Below are positions 13,051 to 42,135 of a DNA stretch of 63,773 bases, one piece after another. Made by a program: the position numbers and the translations under genes. The DNA is from Dehalococcoidales bacterium. GTDB lineage: Bacteria > Chloroflexota > Dehalococcoidia > Dehalococcoidales > UBA2162. Under the pieces are notes generated by a model. It was given only the letters and a program-made list of their open reading frames with translations. It searched no databases and was not told where the DNA came from. Position 1 is the first letter of the stretch; every line of letters begins with the position of its first letter. Where the stretch lies: positions 1 to 63,773 of the forward strand of contig JAFGCW010000004.1 of assembly GCA_016932435.1 (NCBI GenBank), written 5' to 3'.

Positions 13051-14949
13051 TTGAGTGATCTGACCTTCGCTTCCGATGCCCCCGGTAACAAGATGTTCAT
13101 GCTTGGAAACGAGGCGATAGCCAGAGGGGCGATCGAAGCCGGCGTCCAGTTTACCGCCGCCTATCCCGGAACACCATCCAGCGAGGTAACCGAGACCCTG
13201 GCAGAACTGGCCAAAGAAGTGGGTATGTACGTAGAGTGGTCAGTTAATGAAAAGGTCGCCTTCGAAGGCGCTCTGGCCGGCTCGATCTGCGGTCTACGTT
13301 CTCTGGCCTGCATGAAGCACGTCGGAGTCAATGTCGCCCACGATCCGATAATGACCGCCAGTTATATCGGCGCTAAGGGAGGTTTCGTTCTCCTTTCCGC
13401 CGAAGATCCGTGGATGTGGAGTTCACAGAACGAACAGGACAACCGATACATCGCCGAACAGGCGCACATTCCTGTCCTGGAACCATCATCTATCCAGGAA
13501 GCCAAGGACATGATGGCCGACGCGTTCCGCCTTTCCGAAGAATTCAAGCACCTGTTTATACTACGAACAGTCACCAGGATTAATCACGGTCGGAGTGACG
13601 TCACCCTTGGAGAGATTAACAAAGAAAGAAGAAAAGGTAAGTTCGAGAAAAACCGGCAGTGGTTAAACTACACTCCCGCTGAAGCAAGACTGAACAAGCC
13701 GAAAATGCTGGAAAGACTCGAAAAGATAAAAGAAGCCGCGAATAAGATGCCTTATAACAGGCTGGAAGCGGTTAAAGGCGCCAAACTCGGTATCATCGCC
13801 TGCGGCCTGTCCTACAGCTATACGAAGGAAGCGCTCAACTGGATGGGTATTGCCGATAAGGTATCAGTGCTCAAGATCGGTACACCTTATCCCCTGCCTG
13901 AAAAACTGGTCAGGGACATGCTGAACTCTCATGACGAAGTCCTTGTAGCCGAAGAACTCGAACCATTTGTCGAAACCCACGTAAAGGCGATTGCCGGTGA
14001 AGACAACATCAGGGTCAGGATACACGGCAAGGATGTCCTGCCAAGTATTGGCGAGTTATCTACCAGGAAGATAAGCGAAGCGATCGCTGAAATAACCGGT
14101 GAAAAACTCCCGGCTGATTTCAAGAAGATAGACGACCTGAGCCAGAATACGGCTCCGCTGCTGCCGTGGCGGCCGCCTGCTTTGTGTTCCGGCTGTCCGC
14201 ACCGGGCGTCCCATTACGCGATAAACGTCGCGGCGAAAAAGGTAGCCAGGGATTACGGTAAGGACGTCCTGCCTATCTATCCCGGAGATATCGGCTGCTA
14301 CAATTTGGCATACAATCCGCCGCAGGAAGCGGTCGATACCACCATCTGTATGGGGGCCAGTTTCGGCATCGCCAACGGACTGGCACACATCGTGGACGTT
14401 CCTATCGTAGCCCACATGGGAGACTCGACCTTCTTCCACAGCGGTATTGCTCCGATGGTGAACGCGGTATACAACCAGGCCAATATCACAATGGTCATAA
14501 TGGATAACTCCGCCACAGCAATGACCGGCTTCCAGCCCCATCCTGGGACCGGACAGACCGCTACCGGCGACGAAGCCCCTGTCGTCAAGATAGAGGATGT
14601 CGCCAGAGCGTGCGGAGTCAAGTTCGTCGAGATAGTAGATCCCTTCGATATGAAGAACGCCGCCGATGTCTTTGAAAAAGCTATCAGGTTCGATGGTCCT
14701 TCGGTGGTCGTTTCGAGAAGACTCTGCGCGATGATAGAGCAGAGACAGAAACGCGCCCGTGGCGAAAAGACAGTACCTTACACCGTAAATCCGGAAAAGT
14801 GCAATGACAAGTGCAATGTCTGTATAGAACTTCTCGGCTGCCCGGCGTTGATCAAAGAAGGCACGAAAACGGTAGTGGACATCACATTATGCAACGGCTG
14901 CGGAGTCTGCGCCCAGATATGCCCATACAAGGCAATAACACAGGAGTAA
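13051..14949 (+). CDS. iorA: Indolepyruvate ferredoxin oxidoreductase, alpha subunit
   Basis: A 632-residue protein with the full IorA layout. A pyruvate-ferredoxin-oxidoreductase-type N-terminus carries YPGTPSSEVTE (38-48). The TPP-binding half carries CSGCPHRASHY (about 379-389), GDIGCY (about 411) and GDSTFFHSG with NSATAMTGFQPHPG (about 457-500). A C-terminal eight-cysteine ferredoxin domain (about 584-630) ends CNGCGVCAQICPYKA. It decarboxylates aryl-2-oxoacids from Trp, Phe and Tyr to arylacetyl-CoA and reduces ferredoxin. The start is TTG with AAAAGGAGGT upstream. iorB follows after five bases. Oxygen-sensitive enzyme, consistent with an anaerobe. Confidence 0.95.
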   Translation: MSDLTFASDAPGNKMFMLGNEAIARGAIEAGVQFTAAYPGTPSSEVTETLAELAKEVGMYVEWSVNEKVAFEGALAGSICGLRSLACMKHVGVNVAHDPIMTASYIGAKGGFVLLSAEDPWMWSSQNEQDNRYIAEQAHIPVLEPSSIQEAKDMMADAFRLSEEFKHLFILRTVTRINHGRSDVTLGEINKERRKGKFEKNRQWLNYTPAEARLNKPKMLERLEKIKEAANKMPYNRLEAVKGAKLGIIACGLSYSYTKEALNWMGIADKVSVLKIGTPYPLPEKLVRDMLNSHDEVLVAEELEPFVETHVKAIAGEDNIRVRIHGKDVLPSIGELSTRKISEAIAEITGEKLPADFKKIDDLSQNTAPLLPWRPPALCSGCPHRASHYAINVAAKKVARDYGKDVLPIYPGDIGCYNLAYNPPQEAVDTTICMGASFGIANGLAHIVDVPIVAHMGDSTFFHSGIAPMVNAVYNQANITMVIMDNSATAMTGFQPHPGTGQTATGDEAPVVKIEDVARACGVKFVEIVDPFDMKNAADVFEKAIRFDGPSVVVSRRLCAMIEQRQKRARGEKTVPYTVNPEKCNDKCNVCIELLGCPALIKEGTKTVVDITLCNGCGVCAQICPYKAITQE

Positions 14950-21744: not shown

Positions 21745-22893
21745 TCATCCAATCATCTCCAGGAACGCCTGTACTCTTGTCCTGAGCCGGCTGATAGTCG
21801 ATTGCGAATACTGGTCCTCGATATAGAGTACCGGAGTTCCTTTCGACTCGATATAGTCTTTCATTGCCGGTACCTCAAAACCATACGGATCACAGTACAT
21901 GTAAATATAAAGGATCACTCCGTTAACACTATATTCGTCGACAGCACGGATAATATGCCCGAACCTGTCATCCAGCGATTCATCGTATGTTCCCTGTACT
22001 TCCCGATAGGTTCTGCCGCACTTGATCCTTCTCAGGTACCGTTCGGCAATACCGTCTACCGGATTGGCGGTGACTTCCGCCATCGGGAAATATTCGCGTG
22101 TTCCGGGGCAAAGGTCGTCGACGACCACGCTGGCACCGGAATCCTCGACAACATCGATAAGCGCCGTATCGTCCACCTCGGCACCGACTATCATTATACG
22201 GTGAGGTTGCTGGACCAGAACGGTTTCCCTGTTCTTTATCTCTTCAATGACTCCGGAGAGTAATTCGATGCTCTCTTCCGGGGGTATACCCATTATCCCA
22301 ACCAGGATTTTCGTCATTTCACTGCCGGTCAGCAGCGGCGGATCGGACTTCCTCAGTTCATACAGCTCCCTGACCAGCGTTCTGATGCTGTTATGGAGTT
22401 CAACAGCCTGTGCAAGATCTTCGTCAGTAATGTCTTTTCCGGCGTAGTTCCCGATACTTTTCCTGAAGGTGTTCAGTTCGTTTTTATAGAATTCCAGCGA
22501 AGAATCGTCTATCGAATGCGGCAGGTTGACCAGGTGCGAGTATGGAACGTCCAGGCTGTATTTCCATATATCATAGGTCCGGCTGATGCTGTCGCAGGCA
22601 TGAGGAATGACCAGTCCGTCCAGAAATTCGTACCTGCCTTTTAGCGTCACGTCGTAGGCGCTACGTACCACCGGGCAAATGATGGTCTCCATCTGAGTAT
22701 CGGCACGTGTTATCGGTTCATTCACGTCGCCTTTTATCCTGAAAGGAATAAATCCCGCCGCTGTGATTATCTCAACCGGCGTGAACGCACACAGGTATCC
22801 GATCACCTTTCTGCCCTGCTCGTGCAATTCACGGGCATGAGAACCGTAATCAGAATATAGTCTATCAATCCGTTCCAAACTGTTATCAGCCAT
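21745..22893 (-). CDS. 2-hydroxyacyl-CoA dehydratase / benzoyl-CoA reductase-like subunit (2)
   Basis: A 382-residue protein of the same superfamily. Candidate [4Fe-4S] ligands are C35 (GYLCAFTPVE), C73 (IICPVVRS) and C100 (IPHACDSISRTYDIW). The C-terminal VLYIEDQYSQSTISRLRTRVQAFLEM is the usual family ending. It probably forms the second half of a heterodimer with the next gene. Its ATG overlaps the stop of the upstream gene by eight bases, showing translational coupling of all three cluster genes. Confidence 0.87.
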   Translation of the reverse strand: MADNSLERIDRLYSDYGSHARELHEQGRKVIGYLCAFTPVEIITAAGFIPFRIKGDVNEPITRADTQMETIICPVVRSAYDVTLKGRYEFLDGLVIPHACDSISRTYDIWKYSLDVPYSHLVNLPHSIDDSSLEFYKNELNTFRKSIGNYAGKDITDEDLAQAVELHNSIRTLVRELYELRKSDPPLLTGSEMTKILVGIMGIPPEESIELLSGVIEEIKNRETVLVQQPHRIMIVGAEVDDTALIDVVEDSGASVVVDDLCPGTREYFPMAEVTANPVDGIAERYLRRIKCGRTYREVQGTYDESLDDRFGHIIRAVDEYSVNGVILYIYMYCDPYGFEVPAMKDYIESKGTPVLYIEDQYSQSTISRLRTRVQAFLEMIG

Positions 22894-34275: not shown

Positions 34276-35484
34276 TTAGTTTATAACTTCCAAATCCTTT
34301 AGATTGGTTATATCTTCCCAGGTATAACCGAATTCCAGCAGGATTTCCTCGGTATGTTGACCGAGTTCCGGCGCTTCCCGTTGCACTGAAGCCGGTGTAT
34401 CGTGGAATTCCCAGGGGAATCCGATCATTTTTATCGGACCCCAGACGGGATGATCGACGTCAATCACATAGTTGTTCGCCTTCGCCTGTTCATCCTGGAA
34501 TACTTCCGACGGTGACTGGATCGGAGTGTAGATAATCTCCGCTTTCTTGAAGATATCCATCCACTCGTCGCGGTTTTTAGTAGCAAACCTTTCATCAAGT
34601 ATGGCAACCAGTTCTTTGCCGTGGTCATGCCTGGCTTCGATCGTGCTGAATCGCGGATCATTTTCCAGTTCATTCAGCTCCATCGACTTGCATACCTTGG
34701 GCCAGTACCTGTCCGGCTGAAGATGGGCGATAACTATCCACTTGCCGTCTTTACACTGGTAGTGGTTATATATCGGGTTACCGGCTTCGGACCTCTTCAA
34801 TCGCGGAAACTCCTGACCCAGCACTCCCGGTGCTGAGAAATTGACTCCGTTCAGGGCGATCAAGGCTCCCATCAGAGACGTATCGACAAGTTGTCCTTTA
34901 CCGGTTTTCTCCCTGGCGTAGAGAGCTGCCGTAACCGCCCAGGCGGTGATAAGTCCGCCCTGTTCGTCACCCATGCCAGGAATAAGTGTTCCCGGAGGAC
35001 CATCACGTTCACCGCACATCATCATCGTGCCGGAACGGGCAATCCCAGTATAATCGAATGACAGGGCATTTGCATCAGGTCCTTCTCTGCCCCAGCCCGA
35101 AGCATGAGTGTAGATAAGACGGGGATTAATCTTTGAGAGAACGTCATAGGTTATACCGAGTCGCTTGGGAGCGTTGATACTCAGGTTTGTCAGAAAAACA
35201 TCAGCTTGCTTAATCAATTCGAAAAAAACTTCCTTACCTTTTTCGGTACTAAGATCGAGGACAATACTGCGTTTGTTGCGATTGCAGCTTTCGAAGTAGA
35301 AATTTCTGCCTTTAATACCAGTATCGGCGCCGATGATCCTCATCATACCGCGTGCCGCATCACCTTCTTTCGATTCTATCTTGATAACCTTGGCTCCAAG
35401 ATCACCCAGTCTCATACCGGCTACGGGACCCTGCTGAAACTGCGTAAGTTCCACCACCCTGACTCCATCCAGCGGTCCAGCCAT
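34276..35484 (-). CDS. Class III (CaiB/BaiF-type) CoA-transferase
   Basis: A 402-residue family III CoA-transferase. MAGPLDGVRVVELTQFQQGP, GDLGAKVIKIE, NRNKRSIVLDL and SGWGREGP are standard; the catalytic aspartate is D173 in GMGDEQGG. The family moves CoA between carboxylic acids by an aspartyl-CoA thioester. ACAGGAGG lies before the ATG. It fits with the acyl-CoA ligase and dehydratase-like genes in a CoA-based acid degradation route. Donor and acceptor cannot be told. Confidence 0.92.
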   Translation of the reverse strand: MAGPLDGVRVVELTQFQQGPVAGMRLGDLGAKVIKIESKEGDAARGMMRIIGADTGIKGRNFYFESCNRNKRSIVLDLSTEKGKEVFFELIKQADVFLTNLSINAPKRLGITYDVLSKINPRLIYTHASGWGREGPDANALSFDYTGIARSGTMMMCGERDGPPGTLIPGMGDEQGGLITAWAVTAALYAREKTGKGQLVDTSLMGALIALNGVNFSAPGVLGQEFPRLKRSEAGNPIYNHYQCKDGKWIVIAHLQPDRYWPKVCKSMELNELENDPRFSTIEARHDHGKELVAILDERFATKNRDEWMDIFKKAEIIYTPIQSPSEVFQDEQAKANNYVIDVDHPVWGPIKMIGFPWEFHDTPASVQREAPELGQHTEEILLEFGYTWEDITNLKDLEVIN

Positions 35485-35835: not shown

Positions 35836-37389
35836 ATGAGTACGGATAAACAGGCTGTTGTTACGACTAAAAGCGGAAAACTGGAAGGTATTTACCAGGA
35901 CGGGTTATGTGTTTTCAAAGGTATTCCCTATGCCGAACCGCCGGTAGGAACACTCCGGTGGATGCCGCCGCAACCGGTGAAAAAATGGGACGGAGTACGG
36001 CCAGCAAAAGAGTACGGAGCGATGGCCCCGCAGCTCGCAATGGCAGGGCCTAGTGATTCACCCGGAGCACCAAACTTCGGCAACGTACCACAGAGTGAGG
36101 ACTGTCTTTTTCTGAATATATGGACTCCGGGTCTGGACGATAAAAAACGACCGGTGATGTTCTGGATACACGGCGGAGCGTTCATCATCGGCGCAGGTTC
36201 GGAGACTTTTCTGGATAGTGGCGTACTGCCGAAACGCGGCGATATTGTCCTGGTCAGCATCAATTACCGGCTGGGAGTGCCGGGATTCCTGAACCTGAAC
36301 GAAATCACCGGAGGAAAGATACCGTCCACCGGAAATGAAGGGATTCTCGACCAGGTAGCGGCGCTGGAATGGGTTCAGGAAAATATAGCCGATTTCGGAG
36401 GTAATCCCGATAATATAACCATTTTCGGATTTTCCGCCGGGGGGATGAGTATTGGAACCCTGCTGGCGTTGCCGGCCGCAAAAGGGTTGTTCCACAAGGC
36501 CATGAACCGCAGCGGTGCGGCAAACGTGGTATCAACACTGGATAGCGCCGTAGACATCGCAGAACAGTATCTCAGCATCTATGGTCTTTCAGACAATGAT
36601 ACCGACGGTATCAGAAACCTTAGCACTCAGCAGCTTCTCGACGGACAGCAGAAACTCGGTGAAAGACTTCGCGAACAGGAAAATCGTGCGACTCCATTCC
36701 AGCCAGTTGTGGATGGTAAAGTACTACCTGAACTGCCGCTGATCGCTATCAGAAACGGCAGCGCCAGGAATATCACTCTCATGGCGGGAAACTCCCGCGA
36801 TGAACTCAAGTCTACCTACGGTATGAATCCGGCAATGAAAGACCTGGATGAGTCCGGAATTATCGAAAGGCTGAATGCTAACCTTCCTCCTGAAATAGTC
36901 CCGAGGCTGGTACAGGCATACCGTGAATCAATGAAGCGTGAAAATCCCACTGTCACGCCACTCGATATTTTCGGAAGTATCAATACCGATTTGATGTTCC
37001 GGATACCAACACTCCGGCTGGTCGAAGCCCAGCGTGAAAACGGCGTAAAATCATACAACTACCTGTGTGCCTATAAATCACCTGCTATGGGCGGAGTATT
37101 AGGAGCGATGCACGGCCTGGATAATCCATTCCTGTTCGGAACTCTTGATTCTCAGTTTACCGGCAACGGCATTGAACAGCAGAGTATGGCCATCAAGATG
37201 CAGGATTCCAGTGTCGCGTTTGCCCGTACCGGCAATCCCTCCTGTGAGAGCATCGGCACCTGGCTGGAGTATGGAACCGAACGGAATACCATGGTCTTCG
37301 ATATAAATACGCGGGTCGAAAAAGCACCTTACGAAGAAGAACGCCATGCCTGGGACAGCTATGATTATACGATCACGAAACCGATGTAA
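35836..37389 (+). CDS. Type B carboxylesterase
   Basis: A 517-residue alpha/beta-hydrolase of the carboxylesterase/p-nitrobenzyl esterase family. The oxyanion HGGAF lies at 112-116, the nucleophile S200 in GFSAGG, and the catalytic histidine probably in GAMHGLDNPF (about 418). FKGIPYAEPPVG and SEDCLFLNIW are family signatures. There is no signal peptide, so it hydrolyses esters in the cytoplasm. GAGGGAGAG precedes the ATG and a TATAAT promoter is upstream. Natural substrate unknown. Confidence 0.92.
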   Translation: MSTDKQAVVTTKSGKLEGIYQDGLCVFKGIPYAEPPVGTLRWMPPQPVKKWDGVRPAKEYGAMAPQLAMAGPSDSPGAPNFGNVPQSEDCLFLNIWTPGLDDKKRPVMFWIHGGAFIIGAGSETFLDSGVLPKRGDIVLVSINYRLGVPGFLNLNEITGGKIPSTGNEGILDQVAALEWVQENIADFGGNPDNITIFGFSAGGMSIGTLLALPAAKGLFHKAMNRSGAANVVSTLDSAVDIAEQYLSIYGLSDNDTDGIRNLSTQQLLDGQQKLGERLREQENRATPFQPVVDGKVLPELPLIAIRNGSARNITLMAGNSRDELKSTYGMNPAMKDLDESGIIERLNANLPPEIVPRLVQAYRESMKRENPTVTPLDIFGSINTDLMFRIPTLRLVEAQRENGVKSYNYLCAYKSPAMGGVLGAMHGLDNPFLFGTLDSQFTGNGIEQQSMAIKMQDSSVAFARTGNPSCESIGTWLEYGTERNTMVFDINTRVEKAPYEEERHAWDSYDYTITKPM

Positions 37390-37628: not shown

Positions 37629-38555
37629 TTACTGCTCCTGCTTCTGGAGATATCTCTGGGCTGCCATTCCTGCGGAGGCACCGTCACCGACCGCAGCCGA
37701 TACCTGCCTGGGTGAGTCACTCCTGATATCGCCGGCAGCAAAAATGCCCGGTAGTTCGGTCTCCATCCATTCGTTTACCTCAATCTGACCGTTCTCGGTA
37801 AGAGGAACGATCCCATCAAGATAGGCAGTATTCGGATCGAGGCCGATATGGACGAGTACGCCGTCAGTTTTAATGGTTTCTTCCGCGCTTTCACCATCGA
37901 GGACTATCCTGATACCTTCGACCTGTCCATTGCCGATGATCTCTTTTACCATTGCACTGGTATAGATATCCATTTTCGGATTTTCTTTCAACCTGTCCTG
38001 CAGGATCGCCGTCGCGTTTAATTGCGGCATGGCTTCGACGACGATCACTTTATCGGCTATTTTGGATAGGTAAAGCGCTTCGGTAATTCCTGAGTCACCA
38101 CCACCGCATACAACGATCGTCTTCCCGGCAAACTGGCCGCCATCGCAGAAAGCACAGCCGATTACGCCCTTATCTTTAAATTCTATCTCTCCGGGAACAC
38201 CAAGTTTTTTCGGCACCGAACCTCCAGTGAAAATAATCGCCCCGGTTGTAAATCCTTTGCCGTCGACACATCCAACCCATTTACTGCTGGAGAATATTTC
38301 TATCATCGATACTTCAGCTTGCTCGAACTTCAGGCCGTAATTCGTCGCCTGCTTTACCATCTCAGTAGCAAGCTGAGCTCCGGCAATACCCTCGGAAAAG
38401 CCGGGATAGTTCTCGATCAGATCTATGTTCTTGATATATCCGCCGGGGCTTTCTTTATCTATCAGCAACGTCCGCCAGTTTCCACGGCTCAGGTATAGAC
38501 CGGCAGTCAGTCCCGCCGGACCGCCACCGATTATCACTGCATCATAATCAAACAT
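37629..38555 (-). CDS. Thioredoxin-reductase-like flavoprotein
   Basis: A 308-residue TrxB-type FAD enzyme: GGGPAG (10-15) binds FAD, C134-A-F-C137 is the redox pair, GGGDSG (151-156) lies in the NAD(P) domain, and GIFAAGDIRS near 265-275 ends the FAD site. It reduces a thioredoxin or similar dithiol. The NADPH-specific HRRxxxR motif is not evident (VVEAMPQLNA), so NADH or another donor is possible. A strong GAGGGGGG is before the ATG. It lies about 240 bases after the UGSC genes on the same strand and is a candidate electron source for them. Confidence 0.88.
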   Translation of the reverse strand: MFDYDAVIIGGGPAGLTAGLYLSRGNWRTLLIDKESPGGYIKNIDLIENYPGFSEGIAGAQLATEMVKQATNYGLKFEQAEVSMIEIFSSSKWVGCVDGKGFTTGAIIFTGGSVPKKLGVPGEIEFKDKGVIGCAFCDGGQFAGKTIVVCGGGDSGITEALYLSKIADKVIVVEAMPQLNATAILQDRLKENPKMDIYTSAMVKEIIGNGQVEGIRIVLDGESAEETIKTDGVLVHIGLDPNTAYLDGIVPLTENGQIEVNEWMETELPGIFAAGDIRSDSPRQVSAAVGDGASAGMAAQRYLQKQEQ

Positions 38556-38798: not shown

Positions 38799-40454
38799 CT
38801 AATACTTGATATATTTCGGGATAACATTCTTATATTTCACAACCAGCTTATCCCAGTTCTCAGGAAACTCAATTTTCTCGGTATGCGGCATCCCGCCTGA
38901 CATGAGTGCAGTCCATGAGCCCCATCCCCCGCCGACGAATATCTGCACCGGTGCCGGCTGGCCGGGTCTTGCCGTTATCACCTGAACCTGTTCCTTCGGA
39001 TCTTTATTTTCGTTACCAGGCATATAGTACTGCGGAGTCCTCTCAAGGTCTGTCTTCGTATTCTCGACTATATATTGCGTGATCTTTTCCTTGTCCCAGC
39101 CCTTTTCGGCAAGTATCCTGGCATTGGGAGGAGTTATCATCACTGTCAGTGTTCCCATTGACCGGGGTGGAACATTGTAAATAATCGTCCTGAGGAGTCC
39201 CTGGTCATCGGTTGAGTACGAATGGGGTTGCAGGTAGCAGTTAGGAAAGCAGAGAGAAACAGCGCTGTCCTCCCCGCTCAGACCACGCTCTACATGAAGC
39301 GGTTCCCAGGGGCTGTCTTCTTCATTTTCACCGGTAACAAGACAGTATTTCATCGGATTTCCCATCACACCCATGTCTTCTATTTCACGGCGTACTCCGC
39401 GGATGTTCTTGGTTATCAGGGCAAGAGCACGTCCGATGGTTGCGTTACCGATCATACCCGGGCTTAAAGCTCCGAAGCCATCATTAACATTAAGGTCCTT
39501 TCTGACCGGTCCGTTCAATATCCAGAGCGGCGCCCATGACCCGGTACTGACTGCCCAGACATCCGCCATCGGTGCGTTACACAACGCTTTTACTCCGGCG
39601 ATTAGCACCGGCATGTAAGTCGGCAACGCTCCTGCCATAACAGCGGCAACGGCTATCTTTTCGATAGTAGCCTTTCCATTACGGGGTTCCAATTCGGCCA
39701 CGACCTGGTCCGGAGGCAGATCGGTACCTTCCAGCATTTTCGCCACAGCCTCTTCTGTGGGCGGTATCACCGGCAAGCCGTCTGTCCAGCCCCTCTGGTA
39801 AAAGAACCTGTTCACTTCCTCAAGGGTGCCTTTAAAGATAATCCTTGCCGCAGATTCCTGCTTCGGTGATCCGGGATTTCTCTCCTTGCCGGTAAGCGGC
39901 ATCGTCAATCCGACAATGATCTCATCAAATACTTCATCGACTCCGGCTTCTATCTCTTCCATCACGCTGCATTCGGATATTATAGATTCCGGAATAAACC
40001 GCACCGCAGGTAAGCCACGACTGGAAGCAGCCGACTTCGCATCGTTGAGGAAATATTTGTAGACGAGGGTCACCGAAGGTTTATTCCTTCTTTCAACATA
40101 CATCGAGTCGTACGCAAGGTACTTCATGCAGGACCCTCAGTCCCCTACGGCAAGAATGACCGTATCTACCTCGTCTATCCAGGCATTGAACGTATCAATG
40201 TTCTGCGGTTCCAGTTCGGATACGGAGAAAGCCTGTCCCCGGTAATAACTGAATTCGGCATCGGGGTATTTCTCCTTGATCCTGCGTTCAACTACCGGCA
40301 TTATCCGATGAGACGCCTGCTTAATATTGCAGAACATCCCGATCTTCTTCCCGTTGAGATCGTTTAATCTCGCTGCAGTTAGTCCCTTCGTCGGAACAGG
40401 ATCAGCTTCTGCCCAGGGGCTGAGAACTTCAAATGATGTGTCATCTCCACTCAT
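38799..40454 (-). CDS. UGSC-type selenoprotein A with in-frame UGA (Sec106)
   Basis: Two frames joined only by TGA at 40137-40139 give a 551-residue protein. The N-terminal part (SFEVLSPWAEADP, LNDLNGKKIGMF, then VDTVILAVGD) ends in U106-G-S-C109, the hallmark of UGSC (seleno)proteins, followed by MKYLAYDSMY. A C-terminal region of about 380 residues contains RGWTDGLPVIPPTEEAV and GALPTYMPVLIAG. GGAGGT lies before ATG 40454. A neighbouring paralogue has UGA at the same place. The family is presumed redox-active through the U/C pair; reaction unknown. The 3' frame has no ribosome site of its own. Confidence 0.88.
40110..40122 (-). promoter_or_regulatory. SECIS-like hairpin core after the UGA of UGSC gene A
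   Basis: Fourteen bases after the UGA, GUAC-CUUGC-GUAC forms a short stem with a five-base loop containing G. The identical 13 bases occur at the same distance in gene B. Protein conservation (K-Y-L-A-Y) could also explain this, and no folding was run. Confidence 0.4.
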
Positions 40455-40482
40455 AATGAATTACCTCCTTCATCATCTAACT

Positions 40483-42135
40483 TTAATATCTTTCGTACGT
40501 AGGAACAACATTCTTAAATTTTGCTACCAATTTACCCCAGTTTTTCGGCAGCTCTATCTTCTTTGTCACGAATTCATTACCGAACGTACTCATTGATCCA
40601 CCACCTGCGGTAGTAAGAATTCCGGTAAATACACCCGGACCTCCGACACAAACTATGATAATACAGGAAGTATCAGAAAACACCTTGCGAACCGCGTTTT
40701 CACTTTCAGCAATTGGTATTCCCGGTCCCGTATTCGTTATGGCATTCTCGACGATATATTCCATCGCTTTTTCGCGAGTCCAGCCTTCATTGGCCAGGTA
40801 TTTCGTGTGAGGTGGGTTGAGCAGAAATCCTGCCATACCACCGCCCCTGGCATTGTTTATCATTGCCTGGAGTATCCCCTTATCATCGGTCTGCATCGGT
40901 ATGGTCTGGCTGTAAGAGTTGGGGAAGAAAACCGTTACGGTATTATCTTCTTTATTGAAACCCCGACTGACATGGAGTGGTTCCCATGGACACTCCTCCT
41001 CGTTCTCGCCCATTACCAGCGAATACTTGGAGGGATTGCCCAGTACTCCCATATCTTCGACCGCTTTCCTGGCGCCACCGATATTCTTCACGATAAGTCC
41101 CATCGCCCTGCCGATAGTCGCGTTGGCGATATCCCCGGGACTGAGAGTTCCCGAACTGCAGTTAAGGTTGATATCTTTGCGGATCGAGCCGTTAAGGATG
41201 TAACAGGGTGCCCAGGATCCGGTACTTACTTCGAAAGTATCGAAACGGGTCTTCGGTTCCATAATTGCCTGGCAAGCAGCAATCAGCACCGGCATATAGG
41301 TCGGCAACGCTCCCGCCATCACTGCGTTAACGGCTATTTTTTCAACGGTGGCTTTGCCCATCCTGGGAATTATCTTTGTCACAACGCGGTCTGGCGGCAG
41401 ATCCGTACCGGTAAGCATCTCTGCCACCGCTTCTTCTGTAGGAGGAATCACCGGCATACCATCACCCCATCCCCGTCGATAGAAGAAACGGTTAACCTCC
41501 TCCAGACTGCCCTTGAAGACAATCCTCGACTTCTCTTCCGTATCCATCGGAGGAGGATTCTTTTCCTGTTCGGTCAGGGGCCTGGTCAGGGCATTGATTA
41601 TCAGGTCGATTACTTCGGTAACTCCAGCCTCGATATCTTCCTTAACCGTACTTTCGCAGGGAACGTTTTCGGAAATAGACCTTATCCCAGGCAAGCCCTT
41701 ACCGGACGCCGCAGAATATGAATCTGTAACAAATCCGTAGTTGGCAAGCAACGCTACCGGCTTTCCGTAATCTTCGATAGCTACTGTGTTGTACGCAAGG
41801 TACTTCGTGCAGGCCCCTCAGTCACCTACAGAGGTAACCGCAGCATCTATCGATCTCGCCCATTCCTCGAATTTCTTTTTGTTTTCTGTTTCCGTCTCGA
41901 GTACATTAGTTGCATTCGAATTGAACCAGACAAACTTGGCTGTAGGATATTTTGCCTGCAACTCTCTTTCTACAACTTCAAGGATCGGTCCGGCAGCTCT
42001 CTTGAAATTCTTGAAAAGACCGATAGTCTTGCCGTCCAGACTGTCCACTCTCGGTGCAGATCCTCTTAAGGGTATAGGATCTACCACCGCCCAGGGACTT
42101 AGCACTTCATACTGAACATCAGAATTTTCACTCAT
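40483..42135 (-). CDS. UGSC-type selenoprotein B with in-frame UGA (Sec106)
   Basis: Joined through TGA at 41818-41820 this reads as a 550-residue paralogue of protein A. QYEVLSPWAVVDPIP and LDGKTIGLFKN precede U106-G-A-C109 (Ser replaced by Ala in the motif) and TKYLAYNTVA. The long C-terminal part is colinear with A (RRGWGDGMPVIPPTEEAV, GALPTYMPVLIA, STGSWAP). GGAAAGGAG precedes ATG 42135. It is 28 bases upstream of gene A and likely in one operon. Both genes retaining UGA at residue 106 argues against random nonsense mutation. Confidence 0.88.
41791..41803 (-). promoter_or_regulatory. SECIS-like hairpin core after the UGA of UGSC gene B
   Basis: GUAC-CUUGC-GUAC, identical to the element in gene A and again 14 bases past the UGA. 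Confidence 0.4.

Follow-up and report, generated by a model that had tools for sequence, protein, structure and literature searches.

Introduction

Glycine, sarcosine, betaine and D-proline reductases carry their selenocysteine (Sec) in a subunit of the GrdB/PrdB family (PF07355); reductases of this type use Sec to break C-N bonds, and in the glycine reductase systems thioredoxin reductase is the reductant. The GrdB-like Sec protein FarB has been proposed, together with FarE, for monofluoroacetate reduction in Cloacibacillus, that is, to cleave an unusual bond reductively (PMC10838667, available part of the text). Selenoproteins with a UGSC domain are described in a 2008 marine survey, the accessible text of which lists 255 UGSC sequences, placing them among the most numerous selenoproteins, and reports one selenoprotein in which UGSC is fused to a domain called "Unknown_1" (Zhang and Gladyshev 2008, PMC2398784); in the available part of a further study, UGSC makes up 8.2% of selenoprotein genes (PMC9402790). 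Here we analyze two adjacent genes for UGSC-domain selenoproteins in a 63,773-nucleotide stretch from a Dehalococcoidales bacterium (GenBank assembly GCA_016932435.1, contig JAFGCW010000004.1, positions 1 to 63,773 of the forward strand), the whole of which is called the window below. On balance, and with moderate confidence, we favour the reading that both genes encode two-domain Sec-dependent reductases for small organic substrates, with a UGSC domain related to the Sec region of GrdB/PrdB. A preliminary description, made from the DNA letters alone, had called the UGSC reaction undescribed, and this still stands in the accessible parts of the open literature on UGSC selenoproteins. Within the same limits, no link between UGSC and GrdB/PrdB was found in the open-access literature that names both UGSC and selenoprotein.

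Results

The UGSC gene pair and its place in the family

On the minus strand, 28 bp separate gene 1 (complement(38799..40454), with 551 codons before its stop) from gene 2 (complement(40483..42135), with 550 codons before its stop); the two run head to tail, and each is preceded by an AGGAG that resembles, by eye, a ribosome-binding site. When TGA is read as Sec, each frame is open and contains exactly one TGA, at codon 106 (40137..40139 in gene 1 and 41818..41820 in gene 2, both on the minus strand), in the contexts VGD-U-GSC and VGD-U-GAC, respectively; the one plus-strand frame tried across the gene 1 stretch contains many stops. The two products are 52% identical, and both exceed the gathering cut-off of 25 for the Pfam UGSC family PF24696 over approximately residues 21-184 (77.1 and 93.2 bits). 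Against the NCBIfam equivalog NF041046 they reach 64.1 and 70.9 bits, below its curated cut-off of 125, and are therefore not assigned to it. The preliminary description had given the pair as two neighbouring UGSC-family genes of these lengths and outer limits, each with a single TGA at the same codon and with colinear C-terminal regions, all of which is borne out, with the strand now specified. In gene 1 the UGSC domain (residues 21-184) occupies 39903..40394 and is followed by a C-terminal domain of about residues 199-551 (38799..39860); the corresponding domain of gene 2 extends from about residue 200 onward (40483..41538), all on the minus strand.

The pair thus comprises further members of the family whose fused form was reported in 2008. 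As in that protein, so far as its accessible account goes (PMC2398784), a UGSC domain above the Pfam cut-off, a Sec within UGxC and a long additional domain are combined in one chain; unlike it, gene 2 reads UGAC, and a thioredoxin-like fold is not supported for the window proteins. The likeness between Unknown_1 and the window C-terminal domain is one of description.

Recoding of codon 106

Recoding of the TGA to Sec is well supported. The closest orthologues, in locus L001 (Dehalococcoidia W403), are 89% and 92% identical to the products of genes 1 and 2, and both keep the TGA. The ratio of nonsynonymous to synonymous substitution rates (dN/dS) against these orthologues is 0.098 and 0.099 upstream of the TGA and falls to 0.078 and 0.044 over the remainder of the UGSC domain and to 0.052 and 0.020 over the C-terminal domain; all these values are approximate because the synonymous distances are 0.8-1.5. 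Both halves of both genes are therefore under strong purifying selection, with a lower dN/dS after the TGA than before it. In an alignment of 77 homologous rows (A3), codon 106, recounted from the DNA, is TGA in 73 rows from several phyla, Cys in two (P0068 and L072, natural Cys versions with a stop-free frame) and Ala in two (L044 and L049), a distribution biased toward TGA since the rows are mainly open reading frames with [UC]GxC. With the purifying selection on both halves of both genes, it marks the shared TGA as more than coincidence. Cys109 is kept in 77/77. Left out of the alignment were near-identical alphaproteobacterial rows, fragments and three paralogues that are full-length but lack the motif (L012:11654-13396, L050:17603-19282 and L079:14533-16287); L044 and L049 are manual additions. 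The earlier claim of selection for recoding accordingly holds, given a dN/dS of 0.02-0.08 after the TGA together with relatives that have TGA or Cys.

Several variants of the motif were observed in the family. The Ala versions L044:3331-5040 and L049:10010-11713 (codon GCC, Cys109 kept) form a well-supported pair in the tree, and in the UGSC-type paralogue L050:11900-13624 the motif contains two TGA codons (U-G-T-U), which might make a double-Sec active site. Further paralogues read USTC (L012:19260-20924 and L037:424-2058), USSC (L023:6796-8517) and UPGC (L037:2276-4036), UPGC being shared with PrdB-like proteins, L082 and L083 among them.

The machinery for Sec insertion was examined in the genomes of relatives. 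The genome of L001, G001, which is the closest relative, yields a tRNA-Sec match of 68.2 bits and a SelB match of 337 bits over the full profile; among 20 relatives' genomes, tRNA-Sec reaches at least 67 bits in 15 and SelB exceeds its cut-off in 16. Setting the threshold at 67 bits rather than at the Rfam cut-off of 47, which 18 of the 20 reach, avoids counting the additional match of 48-51 bits, probably to a different tRNA, that accompanies the strong one in several genomes. In the Acrocarpospora genome G019, source of the Cys version L072, tRNA-Sec matches do not exceed 45.8 bits and no SelB match passes the cut-off, and G015, source of the Ala version L049, has neither at these thresholds; G016, with a TGA version, has tRNA-Sec and no SelB above cut-off, and G002, G005 and G008 have no strong tRNA-Sec match. 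Across 148 genomes of the class of G003, a UGSC match occurs in 45 (44 over cut-off), and SelB exceeds its cut-off in 40 of these 45 versus 55 of the 103 others (Fisher p 2.8e-5, in a test that ignores relatedness and genome completeness). Among the matches listed for these genomes, all but two contain exactly one TGA. In a look for a selenocysteine insertion sequence (SECIS), the folding of the 45 bases from the UGA at 88 UGA sites is better than that of codon shuffles (mean z -1.40, with 62.5% below -1), and the consensus of 35 sites forms a 4-pair hairpin, two pairs of which each show changes at both positions in 7 rows; this covariation is counted as weak support because it partly follows Tyr/Trp and Tyr/His changes in the protein. 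A further selenoprotein of G001 is likely L160, which matches the DsbA family and has a single in-frame TGA.

Probable relation of the UGSC domain to GrdB/PrdB

Profile comparison suggests a distant relationship between the UGSC domain and the Sec-bearing part of GrdB/PrdB. The UGSC profile matches that of GrdB/PrdB at 94.7% (P 6.3e-8, score 54.7) with Sec aligned on Sec, and when the motif is masked on both sides the match persists at 76.2% in the same register. By comparison, 30 column shuffles give at most 0.9% and 19 profiles of neighbouring genes at most 0.8%, while thioredoxin gives 1.1% with its CxxC not aligned, DsbA 0.5% and Peripla_BP_2 1.0%, so that all 22 unrelated profiles stay at or below 1.1%. 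These profiles were built from the loci with usable sequences (26/37 for GrdB/PrdB, 19/23 for thioredoxin, 12/15 for DsbA and 15/16 for Peripla_BP_2).

The AlphaFold2 model of the UGSC domain is a confident one, with a predicted local distance difference test (pLDDT) score of 92.9, and contains five alternating strand-helix units. As a component of the favoured explanation, and with the same moderate confidence as the whole, the model suggests an alternating strand/helix, Rossmann-like domain with a GrdB/PrdB-like Sec region, in which Sec106 would sit at the start of a helix and Cys109 is a candidate resolving residue. Structure comparison of this model served as a second look, which cannot exclude a fold. 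The window proteins differ from GrdB/PrdB in having no direct Pfam match to that family, a different second domain and a Cys at Sec+3 where the four full-length GrdB compared have Ser, and the relatives G001 and G003 have no GrdE match. They likewise differ from FarB, for which the available part of the source gives a GrdE-like partner and mentions no UGSC domain (PMC10838667).

Other similarities in this region were also recorded. In the strand-Sec-helix region, the UGSC domains of L060, L066 and L069 weakly resemble Peripla_BP_2 or GrdE (PF09338) in direct Pfam comparison, and a relation to Peripla_BP_2 was set aside as chance or generic alpha/beta similarity, since its profile of 15 sequences gives only the 1.0% noted above. 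Short PrdB-like selenoproteins that match only the C-terminal part of PF07355 are present in L081, L082, L096, L098 and others, and a PF07355 match, short or full-length, occurs in 47 of the 148 genomes of the class.

The C-terminal domain and its pairing with UGSC

The C-terminal domain of gene 1 has no Pfam or NCBIfam match at an E value of 1. The structure prediction suggested for it in the preliminary description gave a model with pLDDT 91.1 and, in structure comparison, no clear structural match. In an alignment of 46 rows (A4), G226, P232, M273, G315, N350, G365, E376, G391 and G509 are invariant, a set that includes no Cys and no His; across the 77 rows of A3, E376 is kept in 77, N337 in 75, R342 in 69 and N350 in 68. 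The domain is also found as its own gene, separate and adjacent in many bacteria. Pairing was counted in 20 regions fetched for a UGSC match and chosen by hand, largely from the head of the list. There, a C-terminal domain on the same strand, whether fused or encoded separately, lies at most 400 bp from 18 of the 24 UGSC domains, and the remaining 6 lack one at that distance; among loci retrieved with the full-length query, a set selected for it, the proportion is 104/106. This pattern of fusion and fission suggests that the two domains work together.

Weak PF09338 matches (2/77, best E value 0.066) prompted a comparison of the C-terminal domain with GrdE. These matches fall on residues 89-140, the Sec region of the UGSC domain rather than the C-terminal domain, and the GrdE profile gives 0.1% with the C-terminal domain, 22.8% with the UGSC domain and 13.4% with GrdB; a GrdE/PrdA-like identity for the C-terminal domain was thus rejected. 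With a GrdE/PrdA-type partner missing from the relatives G001 and G003 as well, substrate activation in the proposed reductases would have to differ from that of the known ones.

Two lineages side by side

A midpoint-rooted tree of 55 of the 77 A3 rows, in which the program flagged several rows as long, separates the two genes. Gene 1 pairs with L001:9992-11653 inside a clade of 11 Chloroflexota rows (support 100/100), and gene 2 pairs with L001:8311-9969 inside a 10-row clade (support 96/95) whose other 8 members belong to Acidobacteriota and Myxococcota. The tandem therefore represents two old lineages standing next to each other, perhaps brought together by transfer, and a recent local duplication is rejected on this tree, so that the duplication assumed in the preliminary description is not supported. 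The suggestion made there that the Ser-to-Ala change marks a divergence in active-site chemistry fares no better. Gene 2 reads UGAC, yet its L001 orthologue reads UGSC; gene 1 and its L001 orthologue read UGSC, and the 9 other rows of their clade read UGAC. Because the exchange recurs among orthologues, it is no mark of different chemistry, and a functional switch at this position was rejected. Over the 77 rows, the third motif residue is Ser in 57, Ala in 14, Gly in 3 and Thr in 3. More than one family segment occurs in 29/81 loci, some of these being pieces of one gene.

Neighbourhood and copy number

A thioredoxin-reductase-like (TrxB-like) flavoprotein gene with a CAFC motif (37629..38555, minus strand; PF07992, E value 2.7e-46) follows gene 1 in the same orientation at a distance of 243 bp and is the proposed reductant. 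Such a gene is present in 9/81 loci including the window, with a CxxC in all 9; it stands on the same strand within 250 bp in five (the window, L001, L026, L034 and L080), 14 bp away and divergent in one, and further off in three. The window also carries a CoA-transferase family III gene (34276..35484, minus strand), a carboxylesterase-family gene (35836..37389, plus strand) with homologues in L001, L014, L022 and L047, and an amidase near the gene pair. Around UGSC genes elsewhere, recurrent neighbours are oligopeptide-type and TRAP-type solute-binding proteins, CoA-transferase family III, short-chain dehydrogenase, amidohydrolase, M19 dipeptidase and 2-hydroxyacid dehydrogenase. UGSC matches number at least 22 in G047, at least 22 in G048, 17 in G066, 15 in G065 and 12 in G041. 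Such a pattern would fit a catabolic enzyme diversified by substrate better than a housekeeping redox protein. Elsewhere in the window, 13051-14949 and 21745-22893 resemble by eye a subunit of indolepyruvate ferredoxin oxidoreductase and one of 2-hydroxyacyl-CoA dehydratase, respectively, resemblances that would point to an anaerobic degrader.

Discussion

The sequences show the evidence for recoding, the domain anatomy as modelled, the profile relationship and the gene pairing; by analogy with glycine and proline reductases, a reductive cycle can be outlined for both proteins. The C-terminal domain would most likely be the substrate-specific part that holds the substrate, and the Sec106 selenolate may attack an electrophilic centre of a small organic molecule, whose bond would be cleaved reductively. 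Cys109 could then release the product through formation of a selenenylsulfide, which would be re-reduced by the neighbouring thioredoxin-reductase-like flavoprotein or by another reductase.

A number of observations weigh against this reading. Neither window protein has a direct PF07355 match at an E value of 1, and none of the 77 members has a direct GrdB match among the 25 of 29 Pfam families listed. The UGSC-GrdB match spans just 72 columns, a reversed GrdB profile still gives 8.3% (score 25), and the 22.8% obtained with GrdE belongs in the same account. Pfam matches to Peripla_BP_2 (4/77 members, best E value 7.5e-6, below cut-off) and to GrdE (2/77 members) overlap the Sec region. In four full-length GrdB proteins compared, Sec+3 is Ser and not Cys, so that Cys109 is not a common GrdB feature. 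No GrdE match was found in the possibly incomplete genomes G001 and G003, and with the C-terminal domain unlike GrdE, pyruvoyl-based substrate activation has no visible counterpart. A TrxB-like gene was found in no more than 9 of the 81 loci, many of them short, and 4 of these 9 place it farther off or in the opposite orientation; Ala replaces Sec in two homologues, and the motif is absent from a further three full-length paralogues. Moreover, in folds of the 47 bases from the UGA, a convincing SECIS hairpin was not found in gene 2 (z +1.14) and is weak in gene 1 (z -0.75).

This last result, namely that a strong SECIS was not found in the window genes, would suit a TGA that acts as a true stop, giving a 105-residue product or splitting each gene in two, as would the 442-residue products that the protein database holds for close relatives and that start after the TGA. 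Among 120 relatives listed there, most have about 420-450 residues and cover about 79% of the query, and the shorter entries whose sequences were examined begin just after the TGA and thus look like misannotation. Set against the stop-free Cys versions, the purifying selection across a codon that is TGA in several phyla and the Sec machinery in relatives' genomes, a true stop is very improbable. A thioredoxin-like redox protein is also improbable, if less extremely so. The UxxC motif and the adjoining TrxB-like gene would fit such a protein, and in their accessible parts the 2008 survey states this fold (PMC2398784) and a 2026 review lists UGSC alongside Trx-like-fold proteins (PMC13188914). 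The profile values for thioredoxin and DsbA, however, are 1.1%, with the CxxC not aligned, and 0.5%. The thioredoxin order is beta-alpha-beta-alpha-beta-beta-alpha, unlike the five alternating strand-helix units predicted for UGSC.

A non-reductive role, in which Sec would serve as nucleophile or ligand in group transfer, lyase chemistry or the binding of an organometal or iron-sulfur centre, appears unlikely, with a somewhat greater chance than the thioredoxin-like alternative. Compatible with the favoured chemistry, and rather less doubtful than a non-reductive role, is the possibility that the two copies form one complex, a heterodimer, instead of two enzymes with different substrates. Family genes lie 4-97 bp apart (open frames, approximate) in L004, L005, L012 and L026 and are adjacent in L001, and in L060, L070, L071, L073, L074, L075 and L080 a fusion gene precedes a gene for the C-terminal domain alone. 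A single fusion gene at many loci speaks against a complex, and genomes with from 12 to at least 22 UGSC matches suggest different substrates.

Returning to two-domain Sec-dependent reductases as the preferred explanation, we see the profile link to GrdB/PrdB, the fold prediction and the pairing of the domains as useful additions to what has been reported on UGSC. We tentatively propose, as a possibility held with distinctly less confidence than the assignment of the two genes themselves, that UGSC and its partner domain may constitute a second branch of the GrdB-type selenoenzymes that has so far gone unrecognised, one that lacks pyruvoyl partners and would reductively cleave diverse organic molecules, with an expansion to at least 20 copies in some genomes of the class to which the Dehalococcoidia relatives belong, a spread over many phyla, and each copy tuned by its C-terminal domain. 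The profile and fold results question the thioredoxin-like fold assumed for UGSC proteins, and the profile link, the recurrent partner domain and the candidate reductant together make the function of this numerous selenoprotein family testable.
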